DNA from: Streptomyces sp. V3I8
GTDB lineage: Bacteria; Actinomycetota; Actinomycetes; Streptomycetales; Streptomycetaceae
Direction of reading: 5' to 3'
DNA: 64,000 nucleotides
Assembly (NCBI RefSeq): GCF_030817535.1
Contig: NZ_JAUSZL010000002.1
Location: 124,001 to 188,000, forward strand
Positions within the stretch are counted from its first letter, which is position 1. The number at the start of each line of letters is the position of its first letter. Shown here piece after piece: positions 888 to 17,246 of the stretch. Below the pieces are notes generated by a model. It made no database searches. It was not told the DNA's origin and worked only from the letters and a program-made list of their open reading frames with translations. The position numbers were made by a program, and so were the translations under genes.

Positions 888-936
888 GTCCCTGCGCACG
901 TGAGGGCCGCCGCGCCCGGCGAGACGGTCACCCGGC

Positions 937-953
937 GGGAACGGAACGGGAAC
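937..953. promoter_or_regulatory. GGGAAC direct-repeat pair, 11-bp spacing
   Basis: GGGAAC occurs at 937-942 and 948-953, exactly 11 bp apart, in the 242-bp spacer ahead of the HAD-like gene. The same hexamer with 11-bp spacing recurs before other units of the cluster. SARP activators usually bind short direct repeats at 11-bp spacing. Assigning this site to the SARP at 2839 is inference. Confidence 0.4.
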
Positions 954-1129
954 GGGGCCCGGGACAGTCCTGGTGACCCGGACGGCGGCAGGTCCGCCGC
1001 CGCCCGTGCCGTACTCCCCGCTGCAGTCCCCGCCTTCGTTCCGGCAACCGGTTTGGAGACCCCCATGGACCCGTCACCGCGCACCGGTGGAACGCCGCGC
1101 GTCGTCCGGCACGACGGAAAGGCCGCGGT

Positions 1130-2237: not shown

Positions 2238-2838
2238 CAAAGCCCGACGCACACGGTCGGTGGCCGGCGGCAGAGGACCGCCGGCCACCGGCCGTGTGCG
2301 CGTGGCGGAGCCGGCGGACACGTGCCCGCGGCGCCCCGCGTTCGCCGCACCACGTCCACCGTCCGGCCCCGCGCTCCGCTCGGCGACGCCGCGGACCCGC
2401 GCCCGTACGCACCGAAACGGAACCGGTTGCTACGCCACGTGACGACGTCCGTACGGGGACGACGCCCGCCGGGTCCGGCCGCCGCACCGCGGCCCGGCGC
2501 TCCGCACGGCGGCGGCGACCGACCGCCTGCGCACAGTCCGGGCACGTCCGTCGGGTCCTGTGGGGGTGCAACCCCACGAGCTGCGCAAAGCCCAAACCCC
2601 TACGAAAACTTGTCCGATATCCGCCAGCGCGCCCTCCGTCAGCGGCACGAGAGGCCGGAACCCGCGCCGACCGGTGCACATCGTGGGCGAAGATGTATAC
2701 GTCGACGACGGCCGCCGAGCGCGGTTCCCTGCGGAGCATCGAGGAACGGGAAACGGTCTCCGGCCCCGCCGTGAGGTGCCCCCTGCAGGTGAGCAGCGCG
2801 GTGACGGCCGCCCCCGTACCGAGGAGAGGGCACGCGCC
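2238..2838. other. 600-bp spacer and probable leader/promoter region of the SARP gene
   Basis: No convincing gene is visible; the open frames here have arginine/proline-rich composition typical of shadows. A relatively A/T-rich stretch at about 2580-2625 and again near 2690-2705 is where promoter elements are most likely. GTTCCC at 2724 and GGGAAA at 2748 lie just upstream of the regulator's ribosome-binding site and resemble the repeats seen elsewhere in the cluster. Confidence 0.4.
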
Positions 2839-5800
2839 ATGCACGAATCAGCGCCCATACGCTTTCGTATCCTCGGGTCCCTGGAATGTTGGGACGGGGA
2901 CGAGCGCGTCCACGTCGGAGGGCCCGTCAGCGAACGGGTCCTGGTGATGCTGCTCCTCGAACCCCAGCGCGTCCTGCCGGTGCACCGGCTCGTCGAAGCC
3001 GTCTGGGACGAGGACGCCCCCGCCACCGCGGCGCACCAGGTGCGCAAGGCCGTGGCCGAGCTGCGCCAGCGCATCCCCGGCGGACGCGATCTCATCGTCA
3101 CGGACGGGCCCGGGTACCGTGCCGCCGTCACGACCGGGCAGCTCGACCTGCTGCAGTTCACCGACGCCCTGCGGCGGGCACGCGACCACGCCGCCGCCGG
3201 CCTGGCCATCGAGGCGACGGCGCTGCTGCGCGAAGCCGTCGCCCTGTGGCGCGGGCCGGTGCTGTCCGGCAGCGGCGGCGCGGTCGTCGACGCCGCCTCC
3301 GCCGCGCTGGAGGAACGGCGCATGACCGCGGTGGAGCAGCTCTTCGAACTCGGGCTGGAGGCCGGGGAGGGTTCCGAACTGGTCGCCGGGATCCGCGAGG
3401 CCATCGGTGGCAACCCGCTGCGCGAGACCCTCCGCGGTCAGCTCATGCTCGCCCTGTACCGCTCGGGCCGCCAGGCCGAGGCGCTGGAGGAGTACGGCAA
3501 CATCCGCGATCTGCTCGACGAGGAACTCGGCATCCAGCCGAGCGACTCCCTGCGTGAACTGCACCAGGCCATCCTGCGCAACGAACCCTCGCTGACCGTC
3601 GCCGCCGCGCCCTCCGCGGCGGCCCCGGCGGTGACCGGCAGCCGCTCCACGCTGCCCTACGACCTGCGCGACTTCACCGGCCGCGAGGAGGAGCTGCACA
3701 AACTCCTCGGCTTCGTCGAGGGCGCCACCGGCTCCGGCCCCCTCATCGTCGCCATCGACGGTATGGGCGGCAGCGGCAAGACCTCCCTCGCCGTGCGCGC
3801 CGCACACCGTCTCGCCGACCGGTACCCCGACGCCCAGCTCCACCTCGACCTGCGCGGCTACACCCCCGGCGAGGAACCCCTCACGCCGGCCGCCGCGGCC
3901 GAAGCCCTGCTGCGCATGCTCGGCGTCCCGGGCGAGCGCATCCCCGACGACCCGGAGGGCCGCATCACCCTGTGGCGCTCCACCATGACCAGACACCGGA
4001 TGATCCTGCTGCTTGACAACGTAGTCAGCGAAGCGCAGGTGAAACCGCTCCTCGCCTCCCCCACCGGCACCGTCGTCCTGATCACCAGCCGAGCCCTGCT
4101 CGTGGACCTGGACGCGGCGCACTCCGTCTCCCTCGGCACCATGGCACCGCCGGACAGCGTCGCCCTGATCGTCGGCATCATCGGGGAACGCCGGGCGGAG
4201 GCCGAACCCACGGCCGTCGCCGATCTGGCCGATCTCAGCGGCCATCTGCCGCTCGCCCTGCGGATCGCCGCGGCACGGCTGCGCAAACGGCCCCGCTGGA
4301 CCGTGCGCTACCTCGTGGACCGGCTCCGCGACGACGCCCACCGCCTCGCGGAACTCAGCGCCGGCGAACGCAGCGTGGAGGTCACACTGCGGCTGTCGTA
4401 CGAGGGACTGGGCGCCGACTACCGCAAGTCCTTCCGGCTGCTGGGGCAGTACCCGGGCTCGGACCTCGACGTCTACACGGCGGCGGCTCTTCTCGACTCG
4501 GGCATCAGGGACGCCGAGGACGTCCTGGAGTACCTGCTCGACATGCACCTCGTGCAGCAGCACGAGCCGGGCCGCTACGCGTTCCACGACCTCGTGCGCA
4601 GCTTCGCCCTGATGCTGTCGCGGACCCGCAGTTCCGGTGGCACCGGCGAGTTCTCCGAGGAGGCCGAGGGCGCGGTGCGCCGCTTGCTGGAGTTCTCGCT
4701 CGCCGCCTCGGACGCCGCCTGCGACCTGCTCTTCCCCGGTCGGGTCCGGATGACGCGTCCCGCCCCCTCGTTCGAGCCGGAACTGGCTCCGCTGGCCTCG
4801 CCGGAGGCCGCCCGTGACTGGTTCGAACGGGAGCAGGACGGTCTCCTCGCGGCGATCACCCTGGCGTTCCGGCGGGGTCTGGACCGCGAGGTCGCCCTGC
4901 TCGCGGCGAACGTCGTCTTCCATCTCGACCTGCGGGGCAGGCTGGACGACTTCCTCGCCCTGTGCCGCACCGCGCTCGCCGCGGCCCGCCGCCTGAACGA
5001 GGCCGATCTGCTGCGGCTGAGCCTGTCCAACCTGGCGGTCGCCTGCTGGAAGCGCGGCAGGTTCGAGGACGGCATAGCGGCGGCGGTCGAGGCCCACGAA
5101 TTGGCGGTCGAGCTCGGCGACCTGCGGGGACAGGCCAAGGACACCGGTGTCCTCGGCCTGCTGCTCGCCACCACCGGCCGCTTCGACGAGGCGCTGCCCC
5201 GGCTGGAGCAGTCGATCGCCCTCAAGCGCGAACTCGGCGCCGAACGGGCGGAGGCGGAGTCGCTGTCGAACGTCAGCGGCGTCTACATGGAGCGCGGCTG
5301 CTTCGAGGAGGCGGTGCGCGCGGCCACCCGGTCCATCGAACTCGCCCGCACACTCGGGGCGTCGGAGAAGGAGCTCGTCGGGCTGAGCGATCTGGCGCAG
5401 GTCCGGCTGGCCATGGGCGACGTGGAGGCGGCGGCCCGTACGCTCGCGGGCGCCCGTGAGCGCGCTCCCGGTGCGCTGGCCCCGGCCGACCGGGCGCTGC
5501 AGCTCGTCCTCTCCGCGGAGGCCGAGGGCCGGCTCGGGCGGCAGCGGCAGGCCCTGCACTGGGTGGAGGAGGCCCTTGCCACGAAAGGGCTGGAGGACGC
5601 GCCCGTACGGGAGGTCACCGTATGGAACACGGCCGGGCGGTTCTTCCACCGGGCCGGGGACGACGAGCGGGCGCTGGGGTTGCACCGGCAGGCGCTCGCG
5701 TCCGCGGCCCGGCTGGGCCACCGGGTGGAGGAGGCCTACGCGCTGGACGGCATCGCCCGGGCGCTGACGGCCCTCGGTGACACCGCGGGCGCCGCCGAGC

Positions 5801-5868
5801 AGGGGGCCGCCGCCGAGGAGGCGTTCCTCGCCATGGGGATTCCCGGGCGTTTCCGCCGGGGGGAGTGA
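2839..5868 (+). CDS. Large SARP-family activator (AfsR-like: wHTH-BTAD-NB-ARC-TPR)
   Basis: This 1009-residue regulator has the full AfsR-like layout. An OmpR-type winged helix occupies about residues 5-95 and a bacterial transcriptional activation domain about 100-245. An NB-ARC/STAND ATPase follows with Walker A GMGGSGKTS at about 308-316 and Walker B RMILLLDNV near 387-395. Tetratricopeptide-like helices run from about 700 to 980. The ATG at 2839 was chosen over the upstream in-frame codon at 2560 because GAGGAG sits 12-18 bases before it and the wHTH begins at once. SARPs bind direct repeats overlapping the -35 region of cluster promoters, so it is the natural cluster-situated activator of the genes on both sides. 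Confidence 0.92.
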   Translation: MHESAPIRFRILGSLECWDGDERVHVGGPVSERVLVMLLLEPQRVLPVHRLVEAVWDEDAPATAAHQVRKAVAELRQRIPGGRDLIVTDGPGYRAAVTTGQLDLLQFTDALRRARDHAAAGLAIEATALLREAVALWRGPVLSGSGGAVVDAASAALEERRMTAVEQLFELGLEAGEGSELVAGIREAIGGNPLRETLRGQLMLALYRSGRQAEALEEYGNIRDLLDEELGIQPSDSLRELHQAILRNEPSLTVAAAPSAAAPAVTGSRSTLPYDLRDFTGREEELHKLLGFVEGATGSGPLIVAIDGMGGSGKTSLAVRAAHRLADRYPDAQLHLDLRGYTPGEEPLTPAAAAEALLRMLGVPGERIPDDPEGRITLWRSTMTRHRMILLLDNVVSEAQVKPLLASPTGTVVLITSRALLVDLDAAHSVSLGTMAPPDSVALIVGIIGERRAEAEPTAVADLADLSGHLPLALRIAAARLRKRPRWTVRYLVDRLRDDAHRLAELSAGERSVEVTLRLSYEGLGADYRKSFRLLGQYPGSDLDVYTAAALLDSGIRDAEDVLEYLLDMHLVQQHEPGRYAFHDLVRSFALMLSRTRSSGGTGEFSEEAEGAVRRLLEFSLAASDAACDLLFPGRVRMTRPAPSFEPELAPLASPEAARDWFEREQDGLLAAITLAFRRGLDREVALLAANVVFHLDLRGRLDDFLALCRTALAAARRLNEADLLRLSLSNLAVACWKRGRFEDGIAAAVEAHELAVELGDLRGQAKDTGVLGLLLATTGRFDEALPRLEQSIALKRELGAERAEAESLSNVSGVYMERGCFEEAVRAATRSIELARTLGASEKELVGLSDLAQVRLAMGDVEAAARTLAGARERAPGALAPADRALQLVLSAEAEGRLGRQRQALHWVEEALATKGLEDAPVREVTVWNTAGRFFHRAGDDERALGLHRQALASAARLGHRVEEAYALDGIARALTALGDTAGAAEQGAAAEEAFLAMGIPGRFRRGE

Positions 5869-5997: not shown

Positions 5998-6618
5998 TCA
6001 GGCGGCGAGGAAGTTGGGCCCTTCGTCGCCCTGCGTCCCGGCGGTGACGACGTTCGGACCTTCATCGCCCTCGACACCGGCCGCCGCGACGACGTTCGGG
6101 CCTTCATCCCCCTCGATGCCGATCGCGACGACGTTCGGGCCCTCATCACCTTCCACACCGGCCGTGACGACGTTCGGACCTTCGTCCCCCTCGATGCCGA
6201 TCGTGACGGCATTCGGGCCCTCGTCGCCTTCCGCACCGGCCGCGACAACGTTCGGACCTTCATCGCCCTCGACACCGGCCGCCGCGACGACGTTCGGGCC
6301 CTCATCGCCCTCGGCGCCAATCGCGACGACGTTCGGGCCCTCATCACCTTCCGCACCGGCCGTGACGACGTTCGGGCCCTCGTCGCCCTCGGTGGCGGTC
6401 GTGGTGACGTTCGGGCCCTCGTCGGAGGCGGGCGTCGGGGCCGGGGCGCGGTGCGAAGGGGCGTCCCAGGCGAGGGAGATGCCGGGGACGACGTTCGGCC
6501 CCTCGTCCGAGGCGGGGCTCGCGGCGGCCGTTCCGGCGGCGACACCGGCCGCGAGGGCCAGCGTGATCGCCGCGTGGGCGAGGTGAGCGGCCGAGGTTCC
6601 GAAGCCCTTGAGAAGCAT
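5998..6618 (-). CDS. Tandem DEGPN-repeat protein, candidate multi-core peptide precursor
   Basis: I do not recognise a family. The 206-residue product starts with a hydrophobic Ala/Leu-rich segment (about 10-33) that could be a Sec signal or a leader ending near AAAS. It then carries twelve copies of Asp-Glu-Gly-Pro-Asn at residues 38, 66, 79, 92, 105, 119, 132, 145, 158, 171, 185 and 198, with 13- or 14-residue spacing from the third copy on. Between copies the sequence is short and aliphatic ([25 protein letters not shown]). There is no Cys, and no Lys or Arg after residue 57, so the repeat part is strongly acidic. The ATG follows a GAAGG ribosome-binding site. The ATP-grasp gene lies directly upstream on the same strand. 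Alternatives are a secreted structural or metal-binding repeat protein. Confidence 0.7.
6013..6507 (-). repeat. DEGPN repeat array, 12 units, 39/42-bp period
   Basis: On the plus strand the array appears as recurring CGACGTTCGGGCC-type words every 39 or 42 bases. A three-unit block (TAG, AIG, AAAG variants) at residues 79-118 recurs at 145-184, so a five-unit segment seems to have duplicated, with silent and conservative changes since. The core DEGPN is invariant in all twelve copies while the next two residues vary (VV, VT, AV, FL), which suggests selection on the core. Confidence 0.9.
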
Positions 6619-6724
6619 GATGTCCGCCTTCTGTCGTCACGGTCTGCGGTGCTGACAGAAAGAAAGGTCGCGTCAGGCGCTCCCAGCACGTTCCGCTTCC
6701 GTTACCGGCCCGCCGGGCGGTGCG

Positions 6725-6741
6725 GGGAAGCACCCGGGAAC
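6725..6741. promoter_or_regulatory. GGGAAG/GGGAAC pair upstream of the repeat-protein gene
   Basis: GGGAAG at 6725-6730 and GGGAAC at 6736-6741 are spaced exactly 11 bp, about 110 bp upstream of the repeat-protein start and downstream of the terminator that isolates it from the ATP-grasp gene. The pair is a candidate SARP operator giving this gene its own promoter. Confidence 0.4.
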
Positions 6742-6795
6742 CCCGTCGGCACGGCCCGCCGCACGTCGGCGGAGGACGACACTAAGGACGACGCG

Positions 6796-6834
6796 GACCG
6801 CCCGCACGGCCCTCTCCGGGCCGTGCGGGCGGTC
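6796..6834. terminator. 17-bp perfect hairpin after the ATP-grasp gene
   Basis: Bases 6796-6812 are the exact reverse complement of 6818-6834, with loop TCTCC. It begins 23 bases past the ATP-grasp stop codon in the direction of that gene, a classic intrinsic-terminator position in Streptomyces, where a U-tract is often absent. It implies that the repeat protein is transcribed separately. Confidence 0.8.
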
Positions 6835-6856
6835 GGGGACAGCGATGTGCCGGACC

Positions 6857-8050
6857 TCAGATGTGGTCGGGACGCCGGCTCACCTCCGCGCGCAGCAGCC
6901 GCCCGGTCGCGGCGACCGTCTCGGCGGCCTCCTGCGTGGATTCCGCGCTGATCATCACGTAGCCCTCCGCGGCGTCGCCGTGGGCGGGTATGTCGTCCCC
7001 GGACACGTACGGGAAGTGCACCCGGTGGACGCCGGGCAGCTCGGACACCGCCTCCAGCCCGGACACCGACAACAGCCGCCCCACCGGCAGGCGGTAGGAC
7101 GCGACGGCCGCGTACCGGTCGGCCGTCGGTACGTCCATGGGTTTGCCGGTCAACGCCTGTACGAGTTCCGCTTCCGCGCTGAAGCCCGTGGCGAGCTCGA
7201 TCAGCGAGGCCAGGGGCTCGTCCGGGTAGTCGGCCTGCGAGCGCACCACGCGTGGACCGTCGGCCGTCAGCACGACCACGGTGTAGGCGTAGCCGAACTC
7301 GTATCCGGCGAGGTCGAGCAGCTCGGTCGCGATGGCACGGGCCTCCGCCTCGTCCCGTTCCTCCAGCGGGGCCGGGAAGAGGTGACTGCTCGGGTGCCAG
7401 GCGCCGTGCAGCGCCACGACCCCGACCACCCGGTGCATGCCGTCGACGGTGAGGGTCACGACGCCGTACTCCGGGCCCTCCAGGTACTGCTCCACCAGAT
7501 AGGAACGCTCACCGGCGCACTCGCTCCGCGGGACGGAGATCCGCGCGGAGGGCGGCAGGGTGCGTACGGTGACCGGGGCGCCGATCTCCTCGACCGCCGC
7601 GGGGAGTTCCTGGGCCGTACGGGCCCGGGCGGCGGCCACGTAGGAGTGCCGGCTGCCGTTGAGCAGGGCCCTCATGGCCGCGGGCTCGCTCAGCAGGCGG
7701 GCCGCGTCGACCGGGTTGGGGGTCACGCCGAGGCGGGCCGCGGTCGCGGCGACCGCGGGCAGGTCCGCCGTCCCCCCGCAGGCGAGCAGCCGCTGCGTCC
7801 CGTGGACGCGGACCGATACCTCGATCGCCTCGGCCAGGGCGGTCCCGTCCGCGAGGTCGACGAGGTCCACCGGTGTTCCCGGCGGGAATCCGTCGTCCCG
7901 GGGCAGCCGCCCGTCCGCGAGCACGCGCACGGCGAAGCCCGCCGACAGGGCCTCGTGCACGAGACGGGCGGAGGGACACAGCAGCAGCAGCCGCTGCGGA
8001 GTGCTGTCCGGGGGGTGGTGCTCCCGGTCGTGGTCGGCCGTCGCGTTCAT
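6857..8050 (-). CDS. ATP-grasp-fold protein with degenerate active site
   Basis: The 397-residue protein matches the carboxylate-amine ligase branch of ATP-grasp proteins (BacD-like layout). It has a preATP-grasp domain (about 18-115), a central domain with VEQYLEGPEYGVV (186-198), the HLFPAPLEERDEAEARAIA segment (223-241), LIELATGF (283-290) and the usual C-terminal lid with VSELPGVHRVHF. Key residues differ: the ATP-binding Lys is Arg163, the His and Glu of the usual HxE stretch are Tyr256 and Val258, and the Mg-ligand ExN pair is Arg270/Gln272. Normal ligase chemistry is therefore doubtful. The start is ATG behind GAGGAG. It is divergent from the serine acetyltransferase gene and upstream of the DEGPN-repeat gene. 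It may be a pseudoenzyme partner or binding protein. Confidence 0.8.
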   Translation of the reverse strand: MNATADHDREHHPPDSTPQRLLLLCPSARLVHEALSAGFAVRVLADGRLPRDDGFPPGTPVDLVDLADGTALAEAIEVSVRVHGTQRLLACGGTADLPAVAATAARLGVTPNPVDAARLLSEPAAMRALLNGSRHSYVAAARARTAQELPAAVEEIGAPVTVRTLPPSARISVPRSECAGERSYLVEQYLEGPEYGVVTLTVDGMHRVVGVVALHGAWHPSSHLFPAPLEERDEAEARAIATELLDLAGYEFGYAYTVVVLTADGPRVVRSQADYPDEPLASLIELATGFSAEAELVQALTGKPMDVPTADRYAAVASYRLPVGRLLSVSGLEAVSELPGVHRVHFPYVSGDDIPAHGDAAEGYVMISAESTQEAAETVAATGRLLRAEVSRRPDHI

Positions 8051-8203: not shown

Positions 8204-8372
8204 CGTCCCCGCGCGGAGCACTTCCACGCGGAGCGTCCCCGCGCGGAGCGGCGCTCGACGACAGTGTTCCCGTGGCCGTTCCCGGATCCCTCCCCGTGCG
8301 TTCCCGGTCCGGGTCCCGGCGCGGCTCTCCGGCGCGGCCGGGCGGGGAACGGGCCGGGAAGAGAGCGGGAAC
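8204..8372. promoter_or_regulatory. Divergent promoter region with GTTCCC/GGGAAC arrays and a 16-bp direct repeat
   Basis: This is the spacer between the ATP-grasp (minus) and serine acetyltransferase (plus) genes. A 16-bp direct repeat lies at 8204-8219 and 8234-8249. GTTCCC occurs at 8266, 8278 and 8300. GGGAAC, GGGAAG and GGGAAC occur at 8345, 8356 and 8367, exactly 11 bp apart each time. The two arrays point in opposite orientations, as would suit one activator driving two divergent promoters. Binding is not shown by sequence alone. Confidence 0.5.
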
Positions 8373-8514
8373 GCGGTGGGCCACCGTCTTCCAGGGACCT
8401 CGACCACCGTGGCGGCCGTCAAGGATCCCCCCTCACCACCGGGAGCGGACCGTGTGTCCACGCCCTCCTCCCGGACCTGTGCACGGCCGCTCCCCTTCAC
8501 CGACTGGAGCCCCC

Positions 8515-9207
8515 ATGAGCGCCACCGACAAGGAGCCCGCTTCCGTCCTGCCCTTCCGGCGGACCGAGGCCGCCGGCACGCGGACCGTGCCGACGGCCAC
8601 CCCTCCCGACACCACGGGTGCCGGTCTGCTGCGCCTGATGCGGGAGGACCTGCGTGTCGTCGTCGAGCGCGACCCGTCCGTCCGCGGTCGTCTCGAAGCC
8701 GCGCTGCACCCCGCGCTGACCGCGCTGTGGACGCACCGGGTCGCCCACCGCCTGCACACCCGGGGCCGCAGGATGACGGCACGTCTGCTGGCCCGCTGGG
8801 CCCGGCGGCTGACCGCCGTCGAGATCCACCCCGGAGCGGTGCTGGGCCGCCGGGTGTTCATCGACCACGGAGCCGCGGTGGTCATCGGCGAGACCTGCAC
8901 GGTCGGCGACGACGTGACCATCTACCACCAGGTGACGCTCGGCGCGGTCGGCTGGTGGAGCGACAACGACAGGCCGGCGGGCGACCGGCGGCACCCGGTG
9001 GTGGGCCGTGGCGTCATCCTCGGCACCAACGCCACCGTGCTGGGTCCGGTGACCGTCGGCGACGACGCCGTCATCGGCGCCCAGGCCCTGGTCAACAAGG
9101 ACGTGCCGGCAGGCGCGCGGATGCTGGCCGCCACCGCCACCGGGCGCACGCCGCGCCGTACGTCCGAGGACGTCATCGCGAGCATCGCCTCGGCCGGTTC
9201 CTGGTAG
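8515..9207 (+). CDS. Serine O-acetyltransferase (CysE-like)
   Basis: This 230-residue left-handed beta-helix acyltransferase transfers acetyl from acetyl-CoA to serine, giving O-acetylserine. After a roughly 45-residue extension it shows the CysE core: IDHGAAVVIGETCTVGDD with the catalytic His, a GDRRHPVVG segment with the second conserved His, and hexapeptide repeats through GAQALVNKDVP. The ATG is preceded by GGAG. It stands first in the plus-strand block, next to a cysteine-synthase-like gene. As a second, cluster-embedded copy of a housekeeping function it most likely feeds a beta-substituted alanine rather than cysteine. The N-terminal extension is shorter than that of E. coli CysE, as in many actinobacterial forms. 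Confidence 0.88.
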   Translation: MSATDKEPASVLPFRRTEAAGTRTVPTATPPDTTGAGLLRLMREDLRVVVERDPSVRGRLEAALHPALTALWTHRVAHRLHTRGRRMTARLLARWARRLTAVEIHPGAVLGRRVFIDHGAAVVIGETCTVGDDVTIYHQVTLGAVGWWSDNDRPAGDRRHPVVGRGVILGTNATVLGPVTVGDDAVIGAQALVNKDVPAGARMLAATATGRTPRRTSEDVIASIASAGSW

Positions 9208-9310: not shown

Positions 9311-10288
9311 ATGCGCACCCTCGCACCGAACACCTTGCAGCCGCCCATGGTCCGGCCCGCCGTCGCCGACGGCATCGACGACCTCGTGGGCGCCACCCCC
9401 CTGGTCCGCCTCAGGCTCGAAGGCCTGGCGCAGGGCGCCGAGGTACTGGCCAAACTGGAGGCGGCCAACCCGATGTCCAGCAGCAAGGACCGGGCCGCTC
9501 TGTACATGCTCAAGGCCGCCGAGACACGGGGCGACCTGGCGCCGGGCGGCACGATCGTCGAGGCGACCTCCGGCAACACCGGCATCTCACTCGCCGCCCT
9601 GGCCGCGGCCCGCGGTTACCGCTGCGTCATCGTGCTGCCCGACAACGCGACGACCGAGCGGGTGCGTCTGCTGGCGGCGCTGGGCGCCGAAGTCGTCCGG
9701 ACGCCCGCCGACCTGGGGTACCCGGGAGCGATCGAGAAGGCCGAGGAGATCCACGCGGTCACCCCGGGCTCCTGGTTCCCCTGCCAGCACGAGAACGCGG
9801 ACAACGTCGAGGCCCACTACGCCACCACCGGCCCCGAGATCACCGCGGCCCTCACCTCCACCGGACGCCGCGTCGACACCCTGGTCGTCGCGGTCGGCAC
9901 CGGCGGGACCCTCACCGGCATCGCCCGCCACCTGCGGGAGCAGGATCCCTCGGTACGCGTCGTCGCGGTCGAGCCGGAGGGTTCCCCGCTGCTGTCCGGC
10001 GGGCAGGCCGGACGGCACCGCATCCCCGGTCTCAACGGCGGGTTCATCGCCCCGACCACCGATGTCTCCCTGATCGACGAGGTGATCGCCGTCAGTGACG
10101 CCGACGCCCTGCACACCGCCCGTCGACTCGCCGCCGGGCAGGGCCTGTTCGTCGGCGTCTCCTCCGGTGCGGCCGTGCACGCCGCGCGTCTGGTGGCCGC
10201 CCGGCCCGAATACCGCGACCAGACCGTCGTCACCGTCCTGCCGGACACCGGCGAGCGGTACCTGAGCATGTGGGAAGACCCGTCATGA
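9311..10288 (+). CDS. PLP-dependent cysteine synthase-family enzyme
   Basis: This 325-residue fold-type II PLP enzyme shows Lys59 in NPMSSSKDR as the Schiff-base lysine, the substrate loop EATSGNTG, the PLP-phosphate loop GTGGT and the SSGAA serine near the pyridine ring. OASS-family enzymes replace the acetoxy group of O-acetylserine with a nucleophile through an aminoacrylate. Coupling to the serine acetyltransferase gene and placement in a cluster suggest a dedicated beta-substitution with a nitrogen or oxygen nucleophile, as known for O-ureidoserine synthase DcsD of D-cycloserine biosynthesis, but the nucleophile cannot be read here. Its stop overlaps the cupin start as ATGA, so the two are translationally coupled. 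Confidence 0.87.
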   Translation: MRTLAPNTLQPPMVRPAVADGIDDLVGATPLVRLRLEGLAQGAEVLAKLEAANPMSSSKDRAALYMLKAAETRGDLAPGGTIVEATSGNTGISLAALAAARGYRCVIVLPDNATTERVRLLAALGAEVVRTPADLGYPGAIEKAEEIHAVTPGSWFPCQHENADNVEAHYATTGPEITAALTSTGRRVDTLVVAVGTGGTLTGIARHLREQDPSVRVVAVEPEGSPLLSGGQAGRHRIPGLNGGFIAPTTDVSLIDEVIAVSDADALHTARRLAAGQGLFVGVSSGAAVHAARLVAARPEYRDQTVVTVLPDTGERYLSMWEDPS

Positions 10289-10752
10289 CGCTGCTGGTGT
10301 CGAGCCTGAGGAAGTTCGGCGACGCGATGAAGGTCCGGATCGGGGAGACGACGACCACCCGGTATCTCGCGGTCGCCGCGACCACCGACGGCCGCCTCGG
10401 GATCTTCCACCACCACATGCTGCCGGGCGCCGCCGGAGCGGCCCCGCACTACCACACCCGTATCGCGGAGTCGTTCTACATCATCTCCGGGGAGGTCACC
10501 GTCCACGACGGCACGGGCTGGCACAAGGCCCACGCCGGCGACCTCATGCACGTGCCCGAGAACGCCGTGCACGGCTTCCGCAACGACAGCGACGCACCGG
10601 CGGAGATGCTGATCATCTTTACGCCCGCGGAGAACCGCGAAGCCTTCTTCACGGGTCTCGCGGAGCTCCTGGCCGACGGCAACACCCCGTCCCGGGCCGA
10701 GATGGTCGCGCTCATGGAGAAGTACGACCAGTTCGAGGTCGACGAGCCCTGA
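10285..10752 (+). CDS. Single-domain cupin protein
   Basis: The 155-residue cupin has an intact metal motif: HYHTRIAESFYIISG supplies His-x-His and Glu, and PENAVHGF supplies the third His. A charged C-terminal tail follows. Cupins of this size serve as isomerases, dioxygenases or metal-dependent lyases in biosynthetic clusters, and some act in N-N bond formation when fused to a tRNA-synthetase-like domain, which is absent here. The start at 10285 overlaps the preceding gene as ATGA; an internal ATG at 10327 is possible. The exact reaction is unknown. Confidence 0.8.
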   Translation: MTLLVSSLRKFGDAMKVRIGETTTTRYLAVAATTDGRLGIFHHHMLPGAAGAAPHYHTRIAESFYIISGEVTVHDGTGWHKAHAGDLMHVPENAVHGFRNDSDAPAEMLIIFTPAENREAFFTGLAELLADGNTPSRAEMVALMEKYDQFEVDEP

Positions 10753-10852: not shown

Positions 10853-11839
10853 ATGAATCCCGTCAACTGGGCCCGTTTCGGCCTGCTCGCCGCCCTGTGG
10901 GGGTGCAGCTTCGCCTTCATCAAGGTGTCGCTGGACGCCTTCGCGCCCCTCCAACTCGCCTTCGGGCGGCTCCTCGTGGGCGCCCTCGTCGTCACCCTGA
11001 TCCTCGCCGTGACCAAGGGCGCCTTCCCCCGGCGCGCGGTCTGGGGACACATCGTCGTCGCCTCGGTGTTCGGCAACGTCGTGCCGTTCACCCTCTTCGC
11101 CGTCGGGGAGCAGCACACCACCGCCACCATCGCCGGCGTCATCCAGGGCGCCACGCCCCTGGTCACCCTCGGTCTGGCCGCCGTGGCCATCCGCACGGAG
11201 AAGCCCACGGCCCGCAAGGTGACCGGGCTCGTGATCGGGTTCGTCGGACTGATCGTCGTCGTCGGGCCGTGGCGGACCCATGGTTTCGGCTCCCTCGGCG
11301 GTCAGCTGGCCTGTGTCGGGGCAGCGGTCAGCTACGCGATCAGCTTCGTCTACCTCCGTCGCTTCATCTCCCCGTACAAGATCCCGGCGCTCGCGGTGAC
11401 CGCGGCACAGCTCACCTCCGCCATGGTCATCACCGGTCTGATCACCACCTTCTCGATCGGCTGGGACCTGCCGGGCGAGCTGACGGCCGGCCCGCTGCTG
11501 TCCCTCCTGGTCCTGGGCGGTGCCTCCACCGGTATCGCCTTCGTCCTGATGAACCGGCTCATCGCGGACGCCGGCCCGACCACGGCCTCCGGCGTCAACT
11601 ACCTGGTCCCCGTGTTCTCCGTGCTGGTCGGAGCGGTGGCGCTCAGCGAGAGCGTCACCTGGAACGTGCCGGTGGGCGGTGCGGTGGTCATCGCCGCGCT
11701 CGCCCTCGCGGAGGGGCGGCTGCCGCTGCCGGCGCGCCGCGGCGCGGACGCGGACGCGGGTGCGCCGACGCCTGCCGCTCCGGCTCCAGCTCCGGCTTCT
11801 TCTCCGGCTTCGACCGCGGTCGCCCGGGAGGTCTGCTGA
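10853..11839 (+). CDS. EamA/DMT-family exporter
   Basis: The 328-residue membrane protein has ten predicted hydrophobic segments in two EamA repeats. The first repeat begins FGLLAALWGCSFAFIKV and the second near residue 140-150 (LACVGAAVSYAISFVYL). Members export metabolites such as O-acetylserine, cysteine and other amino acids. It follows the acetylserine and cysteine-synthase-like genes and precedes a strong terminator, so it closes the first transcription unit and is the likely product or intermediate exporter of the cluster. The C-terminal 40 residues are Ala/Pro-rich and cytoplasmic. Confidence 0.87.
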   Translation: MNPVNWARFGLLAALWGCSFAFIKVSLDAFAPLQLAFGRLLVGALVVTLILAVTKGAFPRRAVWGHIVVASVFGNVVPFTLFAVGEQHTTATIAGVIQGATPLVTLGLAAVAIRTEKPTARKVTGLVIGFVGLIVVVGPWRTHGFGSLGGQLACVGAAVSYAISFVYLRRFISPYKIPALAVTAAQLTSAMVITGLITTFSIGWDLPGELTAGPLLSLLVLGGASTGIAFVLMNRLIADAGPTTASGVNYLVPVFSVLVGAVALSESVTWNVPVGGAVVIAALALAEGRLPLPARRGADADAGAPTPAAPAPAPASSPASTAVAREVC

Positions 11840-11882: not shown

Positions 11883-11935
11883 ACGAACGCCGCACGGCGC
11901 GCCCCGCTTCCCGGGGCGCGCCGTGCGGCGTTCGT
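11883..11935. terminator. 24-bp perfect hairpin terminator
   Basis: Bases 11883-11906 are fully complementary to 11912-11935 with a 5-base loop, 43 bases after the EamA stop. It separates the operon at 8515-11839 from the one at 12349-19221. Confidence 0.85.
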
Positions 11936-11948
11936 GTGTCTACCGGGC

Positions 11949-12062
11949 GTTCCCGGGCCCGGCGGGGAACGGCCCGCCGCGGCACGGCTCGCGCGGACCG
12001 TTCCCCGCACGGTTCCCGTGTCCCCTCGTGGGGCGGGAGCGACGTGGGACACGACCGGGAAC
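11949..12062. promoter_or_regulatory. GTTCCC/GGGAAC-rich promoter region of the second operon
   Basis: GTTCCC occurs at 11949, 12000 and 12012, and GGGAAC at 11965 and 12057, in about 115 bases between the terminator and the bicupin gene. The remaining spacer to 12349 holds short GCACCG-type repetitions but no gene that I can support. Confidence 0.4.
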
Positions 12063-12348
12063 CCGCCGCGCGAACCTACGGAGGCAAGCGGAAGAGAGGC
12101 CACGGAAGCCGTTCCGGCCACCATGCCCCTCCCCCGCCGGGCCACCGGCTCACGCGCCACGGCCCACGGTCCACGGCCAGTACCGGTGCACCGAGTACCG
12201 AGCACCAGCACCGGTGCACCGAGCGCTTCGGCGCCACCCCGTCCTCGTACGACGGGCCGCACGGTTTCGCACCCGCCCGCGGTCCCCCACGGCACCAGCA
12301 GGCCGGCGCCACCGCACCGGCCTTCGAACACAGGAAGCAGTCACCGGC

Positions 12349-13191
12349 ATGCCCCCATCCAGCGCACCCGCCACAGCCACCGCCACCACCACCGCCCTCG
12401 GTGACGCCCGCATCATCACCGCGGCCGAATTCGAGTTCCACCCCGTCACCGGCGCCGCCCCCGCCGCCCGGACCACGATCGCGACCCCGGTCAGCCCGGC
12501 CGCCGGTGCCACCCACGTCACCCTCCACGTGGTCCGGATCGCCGCCGGCGAGTCGTACGTCCCCGAGCACAGCGCGGCCGAGGAGAACACCGCCGTGATC
12601 TTCTCGGGCACCGGCTCGGCCGCCGTCGGCGACCTCGCCCTCCCCGTCGAGCGCGGGTCCGCCGCCTACGCCCCCACCGGCCGCTCCCTCACCCTCACCG
12701 CGGACGCCAGGGGCATGACCGCCTACGTGTGGCGCACCCCCCTCGCGAACGCACCCGTCGGGAGCGATCCCGTCCTGCACTCCTCCCTCTGGGACGAGAC
12801 CACTCAGCTGCGCGGCTTCGGCGGGACCGGCCAGGTCGGCGCCGCGGAACGCCGGGCCACCATGAACTTCGTCTTCTGGCCCGGGAACGGCAGCAGCCGG
12901 CTGTGCCTGCACTGCGGCATCCAGCAGCCGGGCGAGACCTTCAACGTCCATCTCCACCCCGACAGCGACGAGGCGTTCATCGCCTTCGAGGGCGTCGGCC
13001 AGATGTACCTGCGCGACCGCTGGATCGACGTGGGCGCGGGCGACGTCCTGTACGCGTCCCCCGGTGTCCTGCACGGCGCCCGCAACCCGCACACCGGTCC
13101 CACCGCCCGCCGCTTCGTGACCTGCGGTGGGCCCAGCCCCTACGACCCGGCGCTCTACTCCGCCGCCGGCTACTCCTCACAGGTCAGGTGA
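12349..13191 (+). CDS. Bicupin protein (ureidoglycine-aminohydrolase-like fold)
   Basis: The 280-residue protein contains two cupin domains. The N-terminal one (about 40-125) has lost the metal His-x-His motif, reading PEHSAAEENTAVIFSG. The C-terminal one (about 165-265) is intact, with NVHLHPDSDEAFIAFEG and PGVLHGARN giving three His and one Glu. A dead first domain with a live second domain resembles (S)-ureidoglycine aminohydrolase and relatives, enzymes that act on ureido carbon. With a dihydroorotase-like gene in the same operon, ureido chemistry is an attractive but unproved idea. The ATG at 12349 follows AGGAAG. It is the first gene of the second operon. Confidence 0.75.
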   Translation: MPPSSAPATATATTTALGDARIITAAEFEFHPVTGAAPAARTTIATPVSPAAGATHVTLHVVRIAAGESYVPEHSAAEENTAVIFSGTGSAAVGDLALPVERGSAAYAPTGRSLTLTADARGMTAYVWRTPLANAPVGSDPVLHSSLWDETTQLRGFGGTGQVGAAERRATMNFVFWPGNGSSRLCLHCGIQQPGETFNVHLHPDSDEAFIAFEGVGQMYLRDRWIDVGAGDVLYASPGVLHGARNPHTGPTARRFVTCGGPSPYDPALYSAAGYSSQVR

Positions 13192-13198
13192 ACGCAGC

Positions 13199-15061
13199 GT
13201 GTGCCGCATATACGGAACCTTCAACGTCCATTCCGACCGGGCCGAGCTGCGCCGCGTCGCCGACCTGATGCACCACGGCGGTCCCGACGCCCAGGGCGTC
13301 GCGCACCGGCCCGACTGGGCGCTCGGCAACAACCGTCTGTCGATCATGGACCCCGAGGGGGGCGCCCAGCCCTACCACCTCGGCCGGGTCACCGTGGTCT
13401 TCAACGGTGAGATCTACAACCACCGCGAGCTGCGCGAGCGCCTCACCGGCCTCGGCTTCCACTTCGACGACCAGTGCGACGGCTCCGTGCTCCCCGCGCT
13501 GTACCTCACGTACGGGGACCGGTTCGCCGAGCACCTGGACGGCATGTACTCCGTCGCGATCATGGATCTGCGGCAGACCCCGCGCATGGTGCTGGCCACC
13601 GACGACTCGGGCATGAAGCCGCTGTACTACCACTGGGACCGTGCCGCCGGCCGCTTCCACTTCGCCTCCGAACTGCCCGCGCTCCTGGGCTTCGCCGGGG
13701 TGAGGGCCGAGGAGGACGAGGCGGGTCTGGACGCCTACCTGACCTCCAAGACGCCGTTCGGCAACCGCACCATGTTCCGCGGGATCCAGGTGTTCCCGCC
13801 GGCCACCACCGCCGTCCTCAGCCACCGGGACGGGCTGCGGCTCAGGCAGCGTCCGATGGCCCACGAGCTGGGCCTGCGCCCCGACAGGGACCGCACCCTC
13901 ACCGAGGCCGGCGACCAGCTGCGCGACCTGCTGTCCGAGGAGGTGTCGCGGCTCCTGATCGCGGACGCCCCCGTCGCGGCGGTCACCTCCGGCGGGCTCG
14001 ACTCCAGTCTCGTCACCGCGCTCGCCGCCCGGGCGCTGCGCGACGGCGGCGGCAGTGGCAGCCTGCACACCTTCAACATCGCCTACACCGGCACCTGGCC
14101 GAGCGACGAGCGCGCCTACGCCGCCGAGGTGGCACGCGCCGCCGGCACCACGCACCACCAGGTCGAGGTCGATCCGGCCACCTTCCCGGACCTGATGACC
14201 GACGTGGTACGCCACCTGGGGCAGCCGAACGCCGACCCGATCACCCTGTCGACGTTCTCCCTCTTCCGCGCGGTCCGTGACGCCGGCTTCAAGGTCGCCC
14301 TCACCGGCGACGCGGCCGACGAACTGTTCAGCGGATACTCCCGGATGACCCAGGCGGTCGCCGCGCACCACGGTTCGCACTGGATCGACGGCTACCTCGA
14401 CCACCTCGCCGCCGTCCCGCGGGCCCTGCGCGAGAGCCTCTACACCGACGAGTACGCCTTCGCCGTGAACGCGGTCGGTCCGGCCCTGCCGCCCGGCGTC
14501 CGGCGGATCCTGCACAGCAGCCCCGGCACCCGGTTGCAGCGCATCGGCGCGGTGGAGCAGCGCTACCGGCTGCCCGCCTACCACCTGCGGCGCGTCGACC
14601 ACCTGTCGATGGCGAGCTCGGTCGAGGTGCGGCTGCCGTTCACCCAGCCGTCCGTCGTGCGCTTCGCCGCCGGTCTCACCGACGAGCAGCGGCTCGTACC
14701 GGGCGTGGGCGTGAAGCGGGCCCTGTACCAGGCCGCGCAGGGGCTCATCCCCCGCAGCGTGCTGGAACGGCCCAAGCAGCCCTTCACCCTCCCGGTCACC
14801 GCGATGCTCGCGCCCGGCCAGCGGCTGTGGACCCTCGCCCGGGACGTCCTGTCCCCCCAGGCGCTGCGCGCCGACGGCCGGATCCGCCCGGAGCGGGTCG
14901 ACGCCCTCTTCGACGAGCAGGCCGCCCGGCCGGGCGACACGGTGTCCCTGGCCCTGTGGTCCCTGATGTCGCACCAGCTGTGGCGCCAGGAGTTCTTCGG
15001 CGCGGCGGGAGCGCCCCTCACCCTGCACACCCCGGTACGAGTCCTGCAGGAGGCGGCATGA
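13199..15061 (+). CDS. Asparagine synthetase-like glutamine amidotransferase
   Basis: This 620-residue AsnB-family protein starts GTG-TGC, so Cys2 becomes the N-terminal nucleophile of a class II glutaminase domain, supported by FNGEIYNH. The synthetase domain has the PP-loop motif TSGGLDSSL near residue 264, which adenylates a carboxylate. The usual HRGPD signature reads HHGGPDAQG, losing the Arg that helps bind glutamine, a notable change. AsnB homologues in clusters form amides or close lactam rings, as in beta-lactam synthetase and lasso cyclase. It begins 8 bases after the bicupin and its stop overlaps the next start (ATGA). Confidence 0.85.
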   Translation: MCRIYGTFNVHSDRAELRRVADLMHHGGPDAQGVAHRPDWALGNNRLSIMDPEGGAQPYHLGRVTVVFNGEIYNHRELRERLTGLGFHFDDQCDGSVLPALYLTYGDRFAEHLDGMYSVAIMDLRQTPRMVLATDDSGMKPLYYHWDRAAGRFHFASELPALLGFAGVRAEEDEAGLDAYLTSKTPFGNRTMFRGIQVFPPATTAVLSHRDGLRLRQRPMAHELGLRPDRDRTLTEAGDQLRDLLSEEVSRLLIADAPVAAVTSGGLDSSLVTALAARALRDGGGSGSLHTFNIAYTGTWPSDERAYAAEVARAAGTTHHQVEVDPATFPDLMTDVVRHLGQPNADPITLSTFSLFRAVRDAGFKVALTGDAADELFSGYSRMTQAVAAHHGSHWIDGYLDHLAAVPRALRESLYTDEYAFAVNAVGPALPPGVRRILHSSPGTRLQRIGAVEQRYRLPAYHLRRVDHLSMASSVEVRLPFTQPSVVRFAAGLTDEQRLVPGVGVKRALYQAAQGLIPRSVLERPKQPFTLPVTAMLAPGQRLWTLARDVLSPQALRADGRIRPERVDALFDEQAARPGDTVSLALWSLMSHQLWRQEFFGAAGAPLTLHTPVRVLQEAA

Positions 15062-16092
15062 CCATCAGCCTCGCCCGGGCGCACGGCACCCCGTGCCCGA
15101 CCGCCGTCGTGGACGCGCGCACCATGCCCGAATCGGAACCCGAACTGCTCGCCCGGCTCACCGAACTGCGGGCGGCCCTCGCCGACCAGGGAGCCGCCGA
15201 CGTCCTGAAGAACGCCCTCGTCCAGCCCTCCCGGCACCCCCTGTTCGACCTGGACTACCGCTTCGTCCAGTCGATGCCGGACCGTCTCGACAGCTTCGAC
15301 CTGCGCGGCTCCTGCGGACACTCGATCCTGGCGGCGGTCGAGGCGGCGGCCCGTACCGGCATGATCCAGCCCCTCGTGCCGGGCTGCCGGGTCCGGGTCA
15401 ACGTGCTCAACAACGGGGACAACGTGGTGTGCGAGGCGGAGGAGACCACGGACGGGGGCACCCGCTTCACGGCGCACTTCCTCTGCTCGCCGCCGCGGCC
15501 GGTGAACGAGCTCCTGATCACCGGTGAGCCCGTCACCGGCGTCCGGTTCGACGGGAGCACGGTCCCCGTCTCCCTGGTCTCCATGGGCAATCCGTACCTC
15601 TTCGTGCACGCCGCCGAACTGGGCGTCCACACCGTCGAGGACCTCTTCGCCGACGACCTCGTGCTGTTCGACCGGATGACCAGGCTGCGTCTGGCGGTCT
15701 GCCGGGCCCAGGGGTGGGACACCACCGGCGCCTTCCCCAAGGTGGCCGCGCTGCTCCCCGACGGTGTGGGCTCCCTCGCGGTCCGTGCCATCTCCGTCCC
15801 GTCCTGGCATCCGACGGTGGCGCTCACCGGCGCCACCTGCCTCGCCGCCGGCGCCGCCGTGGAGGGCACGATCCCCTACCTCCTGTCCGGTGTCTCGGAG
15901 CAGTCGGACAGCGGCATGCTCGCCCTGCGCACGCCGGGCGCCACGGTCCGCGCCTCGGCCCGTACGACGGGCGGCCCCCACGACCGCCGGCTGGCCTGGA
16001 TCTCCGTCGCGGAGAAGCAGGTCGACTACCGCGGCCCCTTCCTGCCCGCCACAGCCTCCGAGGAGTTGTCATGGCTTCCGCTGACAGCCTGA
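15058..16092 (+). CDS. PrpF/DapF-fold isomerase
   Basis: The 344-residue product resembles the PrpF branch (methylaconitate isomerase, oxalomesaconate tautomerase) of the diaminopimelate epimerase fold: two pseudo-symmetric halves, GSCGHSILAAVEAA near residue 82 with the candidate catalytic Cys, and MGNPYLFVHAAELG near 179. These enzymes shift double bonds or racemise a carbon without cofactor. In the D-cycloserine pathway a relative (DcsC) racemises O-ureidoserine, which makes a racemase role worth considering beside the cysteine-synthase-like gene. Its start overlaps the AsnB-like stop, and its 3' end overlaps the next gene by 22 bases. Confidence 0.75.
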   Translation: MTISLARAHGTPCPTAVVDARTMPESEPELLARLTELRAALADQGAADVLKNALVQPSRHPLFDLDYRFVQSMPDRLDSFDLRGSCGHSILAAVEAAARTGMIQPLVPGCRVRVNVLNNGDNVVCEAEETTDGGTRFTAHFLCSPPRPVNELLITGEPVTGVRFDGSTVPVSLVSMGNPYLFVHAAELGVHTVEDLFADDLVLFDRMTRLRLAVCRAQGWDTTGAFPKVAALLPDGVGSLAVRAISVPSWHPTVALTGATCLAAGAAVEGTIPYLLSGVSEQSDSGMLALRTPGATVRASARTTGGPHDRRLAWISVAEKQVDYRGPFLPATASEELSWLPLTA

Positions 16093-17246
16093 CGGTGCCC
16101 GACGCGCCGACGCTCACCGGCCTGCCGCCCGCCCCGTCGGCCGCCGCTCTGACCGCGCCCGTGCGCAAGCTGCTGGCCGCCCATGCCCAGGACGCCGACG
16201 AGAGCGGCGAACCCGACCGGCCGGCCCTGGCGGTGCTGCGCGAGAGCGGCCTGCTGGGTCTGGCGCTGCCCTTCGAGTACGGCGGCGCGGGTGCGGACGC
16301 CGAAGGGCTCAACACGGCCGTCGAAGAGGTGGCGCAGGTCAACGCCTCCGCCTCGATCATGCTCTTCCAGCACTACGCGGTCAGCCGGCGCATCCTCGAA
16401 CACGGCAGTCCGGCCCTGCGCCGCAGGCTGCTGCCCCGGCTGGCCCGGGGCGACTGGCTGGCCGCCTCCGCCTGGAGCGAGCCGGGGGCCGGCGCGAACA
16501 AGAAGCAGCTGTCCACCACCGCCCGCCGCACGCCCGACGGCGGCTGGGTCCTGAACGGCGCCAAGTCCTTCACCACCAGCGCCGGTCTGGCCGACATCTA
16601 CCTGGTGCTGGCCCGGACGGAGGAACCGGCGCCGGACGCCGCCCCGGACACCGGCTACGGTTCCGTCGGCCAGACCTTCTTCCTGATACCGGCCGACACC
16701 CCGGGGCTGGTGCCCGACACCTCGCTGCGGCTGACCGGCATGCGCGGTTCGGCGACGGGGTTCGTCTCCGTGCACGACTGCCACGTCCCCGACACCGCCC
16801 GGCTGGGGCCGATCGGCACGGCCGCCTCGATCATCGCCGGCGTCCGGGACAGCGGTGCCACGCTCGGCGCCGTGTCCGTGGGCCTGGCCCAGGCCGCCCT
16901 CGACCTGGCCCATCGGCACGCGGAGCGCCGCGGCCTGCTGGCCCAGCAGGCGGTACGTCACCGGCTGGTGGACATCGCCGGCGAGGTGGAGACGGCCCGT
17001 GCGGTCGTCGAGCGGGCCGGCCGGCGTACCGCTCCCGACCCCGGGATCGCCACGCTGCACTCCAAGCTCGTCGCCTCCTCGGCCGCCGAGCGCGTCGTCA
17101 ACGCCGTCGAGCGGCTCCTGGGCTCGGCCGGCTACGTCGCCTCGAACGAGATCAACCGCTACGGACGCGACGCCCGCGCCGTCGCCCTGATGGGACCGAC
17201 CAACGACCTCTGCAAGGAACTGGTGAGTCTGACGTGGAACCGTTGA
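16071..17246 (+). CDS. Acyl-CoA dehydrogenase-fold flavoprotein, catalytic Glu absent
   Basis: The 391-residue protein has the ACAD three-domain layout, with SAWSEPGAGANKK (FAD/substrate loop), the NGAKSFTTSAGLAD strand and a C-terminal helical domain with GSAGYVASNEINRYGRDARA. The family's YEGT segment reads MGPT near residues 374-377, so the Glu base of straight-chain dehydrogenases is Gly375. A flavin reductase is encoded in the same operon. Together this favours a two-component monooxygenase of the ACAD fold, such as nitrososynthases or the isobutylamine N-hydroxylase VlmH, over a dehydrogenase. This is inference; some dehydrogenases carry their base elsewhere. Confidence 0.8.
   Translation: MASADSLTVPDAPTLTGLPPAPSAAALTAPVRKLLAAHAQDADESGEPDRPALAVLRESGLLGLALPFEYGGAGADAEGLNTAVEEVAQVNASASIMLFQHYAVSRRILEHGSPALRRRLLPRLARGDWLAASAWSEPGAGANKKQLSTTARRTPDGGWVLNGAKSFTTSAGLADIYLVLARTEEPAPDAAPDTGYGSVGQTFFLIPADTPGLVPDTSLRLTGMRGSATGFVSVHDCHVPDTARLGPIGTAASIIAGVRDSGATLGAVSVGLAQAALDLAHRHAERRGLLAQQAVRHRLVDIAGEVETARAVVERAGRRTAPDPGIATLHSKLVASSAAERVVNAVERLLGSAGYVASNEINRYGRDARAVALMGPTNDLCKELVSLTWNR

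Follow-up and report, generated by a model that had tools for sequence, protein, structure and literature searches.

A twelve-copy DEGPN repeat protein of Streptomyces sp. V3I8 and its apparent family of small proteins encoded beside one clade of large SARPs

What is a small protein that repeats the pentapeptide DEGPN twelve times doing next to a large regulator? The question is raised by a locus in a stretch of 64,000 nucleotides from Streptomyces sp. V3I8 (contig NZ_JAUSZL010000002.1, positions 124,001 to 188,000 of the forward strand; the window, hereafter). The gene of the repeat protein, P0001, is flanked there, as a first-pass annotation had stated, by the gene of a large Streptomyces antibiotic regulatory protein (SARP) and by an amino-acid operon; the genes on that side run from CysE to an amidohydrolase. 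That annotation proposed a multi-core peptide system in which a neighboring ATP-grasp enzyme, similar to PGM1 or, less likely, to a graspetide ligase, acts on the peptides. The present analysis leads elsewhere. Judged by its sequence, the repeat protein is a member of a large family of small proteins whose genes accompany the large SARPs of one clade. On balance, we take the DEGPN gene to encode an apparently exported multi-copy precursor that forms a loop with the SARP and is probably the source of a pheromone, to which the TPR domain of that regulator would respond.

The DEGPN repeat protein

The open reading frame (ORF) of P0001 (5998..6618, minus strand) encodes a precursor of 206 amino acids (aa) with a signal-like N terminus and exactly 12 DEGPN cores, all within residues 38 to 198; about 0.002 copies are expected by chance in the shuffled mature protein. 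The 12 invariant cores reported earlier are thus exact in number, and the spacing of 13 or 14 residues given for them applies to ten of the 11 intervals, with the first being 28 residues. The codons of the core vary synonymously (Asp, GAC in 6 and GAT in 6; Glu, GAG in 7 and GAA in 5; Gly, GGC in 7, GGT in 3, and GGG in 2), and because the core residues are invariant while their codons vary, selection acts on the protein. The N-terminal hydrophobic segment that had been noticed ahead of the cores is indeed present. It is basic-hydrophobic and signal-like by a hydropathy rule, and AlphaFold places a helix at residues 8 to 31, in a weakly modeled region with a model confidence (pLDDT) of <50.

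Close relatives of P0001 with exact DEGPN counts of 11, 12, 9, and 7 were found in S. apricus, Streptomyces sp. M41, S. dioscori, and S. tauricus, respectively, these four being picked out of 27 pattern stretches. With P0001 as the query, 4 of 100 genomes gave matches, namely, its own genome and three compositional-looking ones, and the matches L002 to L004 were judged by eye to reflect compositional similarity only. A match on a Peribacillus plasmid, which adjoins a BclB-related exosporium gene, was set aside as low-complexity similarity. At positions 6619 to 6680 of the window (minus strand), an inverted repeat, CTTTCTGTC/GACAGAAGG, is identical in six orthologues, and it can base-pair with the repeat gene's ribosome site. 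A conserved hairpin over this ribosome site was considered and rejected, its folding being no better than that of shuffles (z = -0.85).

A clade of large SARPs with small peptide partners

The proposed receptor and activator is the AfsR-type SARP encoded at 2560..5868 on the plus strand. Its ORF of 1,102 aa, whose true start is probably somewhat farther inside, contains BTAD, Trans_reg_C, NB-ARC, and TPR_12 domains, the last in four stretches. The two genes are convergent, with the peptide gene on the 3' side of the SARP gene. In related clusters, a different small gene occupies the same position, encoding a single ADNHGPG in locus L022 and a run of NAGPG in locus L023, and the TPR part of the SARP was therefore used as the query in a wider search. 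The search covered 121 and then 353 genomes, and 69 of the 353 have 72 matches at E<=1e-40. The 74 SARP loci compared comprise 20 and 48 fetched regions, the window, L022, L023, and L006 to L008; one further match, G364, was excluded, as its contig breaks off within the SARP. Seventy-two of these SARPs are assessable, since the sequences of L086 and L091 stop at the SARP or immediately beyond it. Most of the 48 later loci were fetched to about 6 kb downstream, which makes absences provisional.

A small signal-like ORF is present at the 3' side of 68 of the 72 assessable SARPs. A filter recovered 64 of them, with a candidate in L102 discarded, and the other four (L089, L090, L157, and L174) were recognized by eye. 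The copy number of the core ranges from 1 to 17, with 25 of the 68 partner peptides being multi-copy and 43 single-copy, the latter only 45 to 73 aa long. The core is short, acidic, and mostly of the form D-x-(x)-G-P, including DEGPN, GEGPN, DDQGPTVI, DNQNPTV, DDKGPT, ADNQGP, DDHGPS, ADDRGPG, ADDRDP, and C-terminal NNGNG or DHGN[GV]. A regular expression for the core matches 53 of the 68, and the other 15 were assigned by eye, with variants such as ADDRDP, ADERPP, and C-terminal NNGNG. The C-terminal core type, encoded on the SARP's own strand, accounts for 8 of the 64 filter hits. The listed members have basic-hydrophobic N termini, which is also a condition of the filter. On a quick tree of the TPR part, the family switched at least 5 times between single-copy and multi-copy forms. 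NCBIfam and Pfam searches with eight of the small peptides and with a secreted companion of AfsS (described below) gave no convincing family (best E, 0.031, far below the cut-off), and neither did a further family search with three peptides and the companion.

When the filter was restricted to ATG starts and a fixed pattern, a signal-like ORF was found in 65/72 SARP 3' windows and in 42/500 control windows of the same size from the same loci, and the strict core motif in 54/72 and 3/500, respectively; since the core filter was written after the sequences had been seen and the loci are related, these contrasts overstate significance, and no weight is placed on a p-value. In an earlier and smaller count, the figures were 14 of 21 for SARP-adjacent candidates and 5 of 39 elsewhere. 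Outside the clade, the strict motif was found beside none of 7 more distant TPR-SARPs, none of 8 paralogues from the same genome (13 fetched), and none of 25 assessable AfsR loci. Three annotated plasmid records, of six matched, each carry a peptide (P0003 to P0005) that is annotated merely as a hypothetical protein. These plasmid peptides adjoin genes for a MupA-like monooxygenase, for a methylaspartate mutase, and for a SidA-like monooxygenase together with class I tRNA ligase-like and cupin-like proteins. Of the genes compared, that of the peptide accompanies the SARP most closely, and it does so in clusters of differing content.

SARP-type promoters

In the SARP promoter layout reported in the available portion of PMC10936776, the last of the heptamer repeats is separated from the -10 element by 8 bp. 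Upstream sequence of 220 bp was compared for 63 peptide genes, all of them starting with ATG and having a filter score of >2.8. In these regions, heptamers of the GG[GT]AxCG type are spaced by 11 bp 32 times and by 22 bp 24 times, and never by 9, 10, 12, or 13 bp. With a matrix built on 13 distinct sites and a threshold above 99% of 7,118 background chunks, an operator was predicted in 49 of the 63 upstream regions, several of these sites being from near-identical relatives, and in 30 of the 44 outside the training of the matrix. The hexamer nAnnnT follows at exactly 8 bp in 45 of the 49, and at any other spacing from 0 to 19 bp in at most 1 of 49. The plasmid genes of P0003 to P0005, also outside the training, have both operator and hexamer in 3 of 3 cases. 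As predicted from these motifs, the repeat gene and its family have the layout of a SARP regulon, with direct heptamers of 11-bp period and 8 bp to the -10 element.

Four operator sites with a hexamer are predicted in the window. The best score of all 64 kb (28.2, a training site) belongs to the operator of the repeat gene, GGTAACG-N4-CGGAACG-N4-GGGAGCG, with an 11-bp period (6678..6706, minus strand); its predicted -10 hexamer, GACCTT (6664..6669, minus strand), lies 8 bp after the third heptamer. The other predicted operators face the P0002 gene, which encodes the ATP-grasp relative (8277..8305, minus strand; score, 18.7; -10, AACACT), and the CysE operon (8345..8373, plus strand; score, 19.8; -10, CACCGT). 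The peptide, P0002, and CysE sites recur in L006, L007, L008, and L085. The fourth site (926..954, plus strand; -10, GACAGT) has an uncertain target; it lies 175 bp before a HAD hydrolase ORF (1130-1855), and similar sites in L006, L007, and L008 lie about 1 kb before the HAD homologue.

A proposed signaling loop and its alternatives

The simplest fit would be a signal that feeds back on the SARP, because the gene combines a SARP-type promoter, adjacency to the SARP, apparent export, and a core that was amplified at least five times. In the proposed mechanism, the SARP would transcribe the peptide gene, and the precursor would leave the cell through Sec and be cut into short peptides around the core. 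A cut peptide would then re-enter the cell, where it would bind to the TPR domain of the regulator; this would relieve the autoinhibition of the SARP and switch on the CysE operon, making the loop autoinducing. A higher copy number may raise the signal yield, as proposed for the multi-copy propeptides of Bacillota. The degenerate ATP-grasp protein may be a frequent, though not universal, third part of the system, probably noncatalytic here and perhaps a sensor of amino acids or peptides.

Actinobacteria typically signal with small molecules that enzymes produce, according to the available portion of PMC10075063, and no description of an exported peptide encoded beside a large SARP was found in the open-access literature, as judged by titles and the beginnings of abstracts. 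More tentatively, the large SARPs may form a Streptomyces-wide class of receptors for exported, SARP-driven peptides of the D-x-(x)-G-P type, each private to its antibiotic cluster, with AfsR-AfsS as the housekeeping, non-exported form; we regard this wider claim as quite possible, short of probable. If true, it would explain what AfsS does. If every large SARP of the clade has a peptide of its own, silent clusters could be woken cheaply and generally by adding the predicted peptide; the TPR domain of large SARPs would also gain a ligand, and AfsS a testable role.

Several points weigh against the signal reading, besides the post hoc core filter and the near-identical promoters mentioned above. 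The export of the peptide is predicted from the hydropathy rule, and its cleavage, uptake, and binding are steps that we infer. No recognized peptide was found at 4 of the 72 assessable SARPs (L102, L170, L179, and L198), and 14 of the 63 peptide upstream regions are below the operator threshold. The similarities of core and TPR part are weakly correlated among 26 representatives of 47 parsed loci (Mantel r = 0.21, with 79 of 5,000 permutations at least as high). AlphaFold models the repeats of P0001 as beta strands, with blocks of about 60 to 79 in pLDDT and 59.6 for the whole model, which would also fit a structural protein. For AfsR, ATP binding alone relieved the inhibition by the NOD and TPR domains in vitro, and the available portion of PMC10936776 mentions no peptide ligand. 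Finally, AfsS is without a signal peptide, and a secreted companion with a D-N-x-x-P or D-D-H-x-T motif was found in only three genomes.

The best surviving alternative, which we consider unlikely but deserving of attention, is an exported effector that the SARP drives and that does not signal back, such as a public good, a metal-binding helper, or a surface or matrix protein made together with the antibiotic. Neither the SARP-type promoter nor the signal-like N terminus needs a receptor role, and the AlphaFold model, with one strand per repeat, would suit such a protein. However, the gene stays close beside the SARP even where the rest of the cluster differs, which argues against it, and the 43 single-copy members are too small for a repeat fold. 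It is more improbable that P0001 is an AfsS-like intracellular regulator, its N terminus anchoring or only partly exporting the protein and its repeats acting inside the cell on the SARP, on RNA polymerase, or on another regulator. AfsS itself is an AfsR-driven repeat protein without a signal sequence and shares the D-N-x-x-P look, whereas the N termini of the listed family members are basic-hydrophobic and P0001 is not matched by the AfsS model NF053616 or by any other family at E<=0.1.

The ATP-grasp relative P0002

The gene of P0002 (6857..8050, minus strand) lies 238 bp upstream of the DEGPN gene on the same strand, which agrees with the first-pass annotation. The ATP-grasp fold given to it there holds only as a distant kinship to L-amino-acid ligases: the only Pfam match at E<=0.1 is LAL_C2 (E=1.7e-9), with no Pfam ATP-grasp domain at this cut-off, and the only PDB match at E<=0.01 is the L-amino-acid ligase BL00235 (E=0.00087). 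The HTE...VIE...R positions of BL00235, which we take to be catalytic, align with YTV...VVR...D in P0002, so that Glu, Glu, and Arg are replaced by V, R, and D. A homologue in L022, with about 40% identity to P0002, looks intact (HTEV...VES...R; ATP-grasp_4, E=8.8e-16), and because this homologue keeps the ligase residues, P0002 looks like a decayed ligase. Among 38 SARP-linked proteins of the family with a printed motif, including P0002 and its five closest orthologues, the first glutamate was read by eye in 3, the second in 1, and both in none; outside this set, L022 keeps both glutamates and L099 at least the first. Some relatives have shrunk to about 130 aa. Structures of PGM1 are present in the PDB, and PGM1 is absent among the listed PDB matches of P0002 and of its alignment. 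With the catalytic residues lost and some relatives so short, capping or cross-linking by P0002 appears unlikely here, though not in every relative, and the ligase chemistry expected from a PGM1-like or graspetide-like enzyme finds no support.

An ATP-grasp relative was detected near 60 of the 72 assessable SARPs, about 5 kb away in L098 and L187, and in a few loci the nearest match may be another ATP-grasp protein. It was undetected at 10 of the 68 peptide loci, and L170 and L179 have one without a peptide. CysE/CysK are present in 13 of the 74 SARP loci and were found in the fetched regions of none of the other 61. The co-occurrence of the repeat gene with the ATP-grasp, CysE, and cysteine synthase genes that the earlier proposal asked for therefore does not extend throughout the family; the peptide family largely presents the situation named in that proposal as contrary to it, a peptide without the ATP-grasp and enzyme genes. 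That P0001 is a multi-core precursor of a ribosomally synthesized and post-translationally modified peptide, cut into peptides that the ATP-grasp protein caps or cross-links with the neighboring operon's amino acid, is highly improbable, since the frequency of ATP-grasp relatives beside the SARPs, the conserved synteny, and the ligase of L022, which looks intact and is encoded in one cluster with a related peptide, are set against the loss of at least one of two glutamates in each of the 38 proteins, the fragments, the loci without an ATP-grasp relative or CysE/CysK, a signal-like N terminus in place of a leader, and the absence of PGM1 among the matches.

Three further observations concern this family. 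The degenerate proteins (e.g., in L103, L104, L196 to L201, and L095 to L097) often have Ser/Gly-Cys-Arg at the second glutamate motif of the ligases. In some loci, the degenerate gene lies directly upstream of the SARP gene on the same strand. L025 and L026 (CysE, CysK, and ATP-grasp) and L027 (ATP-grasp alone) have no SARP match in the fetched stretch and no recognized peptide, the filter there requiring GP.

Gene neighborhood

The genes beyond P0002 are on the plus strand and encode a serine O-acetyltransferase-like CysE (8515..9207, from a chosen ATG at 8515 in an ORF that begins at 8272), a cysteine synthase-like pyridoxal phosphate enzyme, CysK (9311..10288), a single cupin protein (10270..10752), an EamA transporter (10853..11839), a bicupin (11923..13191, with a true start that is probably later), an asparagine synthase-like amidotransferase, AsnB (13127..15061), a PrpF-like isomerase (14827..16092), an acyl-CoA dehydrogenase-like protein (15714..17246), and an amidohydrolase (17234..18655), the coordinates of the last five being those of ORFs. 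The order from the peptide gene through P0002, CysE, CysK, cupin, EamA, bicupin, AsnB, and PrpF to the acyl-CoA dehydrogenase is kept in L005 to L008 and L085, which bears out the earlier view that a multi-copy peptide gene is tied to this cluster. All four named DEGPN relatives keep it, with the SARP on the other side in the three loci that reach that far. Near the amino-acid cluster, a protein with a C-terminal ricin-type beta-trefoil lectin domain is encoded at 19501-20823 (plus strand). Elsewhere in the window, perfect short tandem repeats are found at 62122-62155 (GTGGCTG, 4.9 copies) and 62410-62460 (CCGTGTCG, 6.4 copies).

Comparison with known systems

Pheganomycin-type systems have an active PGM1-like ATP-grasp ligase, and graspetides have an active ATP-grasp macrocyclase acting on a leader-core precursor. 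The present locus resembles both in having an ATP-grasp relative beside a multi-core peptide gene, and it differs in that this relative is degenerate, lacking the expected catalytic residues and an ATP-grasp Pfam domain, PGM1 is not among its matches, and the precursor has an export-type N terminus.

A second comparison is with the RRNPPA systems of peptide quorum sensing in Bacillota (Rap-Phr, PlcR-PapR, and AimR-AimP). In these, a TPR receptor is encoded next to an exported propeptide, with up to six pheromone copies in some (PMC9765709, available portion), and multi-copy propeptides have precedents in Bacillota (PMC11343458 and PMC9765709, available portions). The present clade also pairs a TPR protein with a small adjacent gene of putative propeptide type, the TPR_12 and NB-ARC SARP with a 3' gene in 68 of 72 cases. 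The proposed receptor, however, is a SARP of 1,102 aa with OmpR-type DNA binding and NB-ARC, the copies number up to 17, and the peptide binding is a prediction. The SARP ORF is outside the receptor range of 250 to 500 aa set in RRNPP_Detector (PMC10075063, available portion), which would therefore pass over these large SARPs.

AfsR-AfsS is the comparison within Streptomyces. AfsR switches on afsS, and its own SARP domain is held in check by its NOD and TPR domains (PMC10936776, available portion). In the V3I8 genome, AfsR (L041) is followed by an AfsS with four DNGMPxPP repeats (NF053616, 82 bits; cut-off, 60) and then by a 50-aa signal-like protein with ADNSMPAPPP. Genome G006 has ADNHAPxPP in AfsS and SDNHAPIGP in the gene that follows; in G018, the motif is xDDHVT in an AfsS-like gene, which the filter found and NF053616 did not, and ADDHST in the secreted protein. 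In these loci (L041:6763-7005 and 7192-7344, L111, and L118), the AfsS repeats and the neighboring secreted protein share a genome-specific motif (DNxMP, DNHAP, or DDHxT). Of 30 AfsS loci that NF053616 retrieved, 27 had a readable AfsS and 2 a secreted companion. The companion is rare, yet it copies the local motif in all three genomes that have one. As a query against 61 genomes, the 50-aa companion gave, besides itself, two weak matches (E, 4e-4 and 0.009), so that it is position and motif on which the parallel with AfsS is based.

AfsS differs from the DEGPN protein in having no signal peptide and in being encoded downstream of afsR on the same strand, whereas the DEGPN protein is signal-like, convergently encoded, and without a match to NF053616. 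The two systems are alike in their large SARP with NB-ARC and TPR, a small adjacent gene with a SARP promoter, and tandem D-N-x-x-P repeats that resemble the cores, and AfsR with its repeat partner AfsS may follow the same logic without export.

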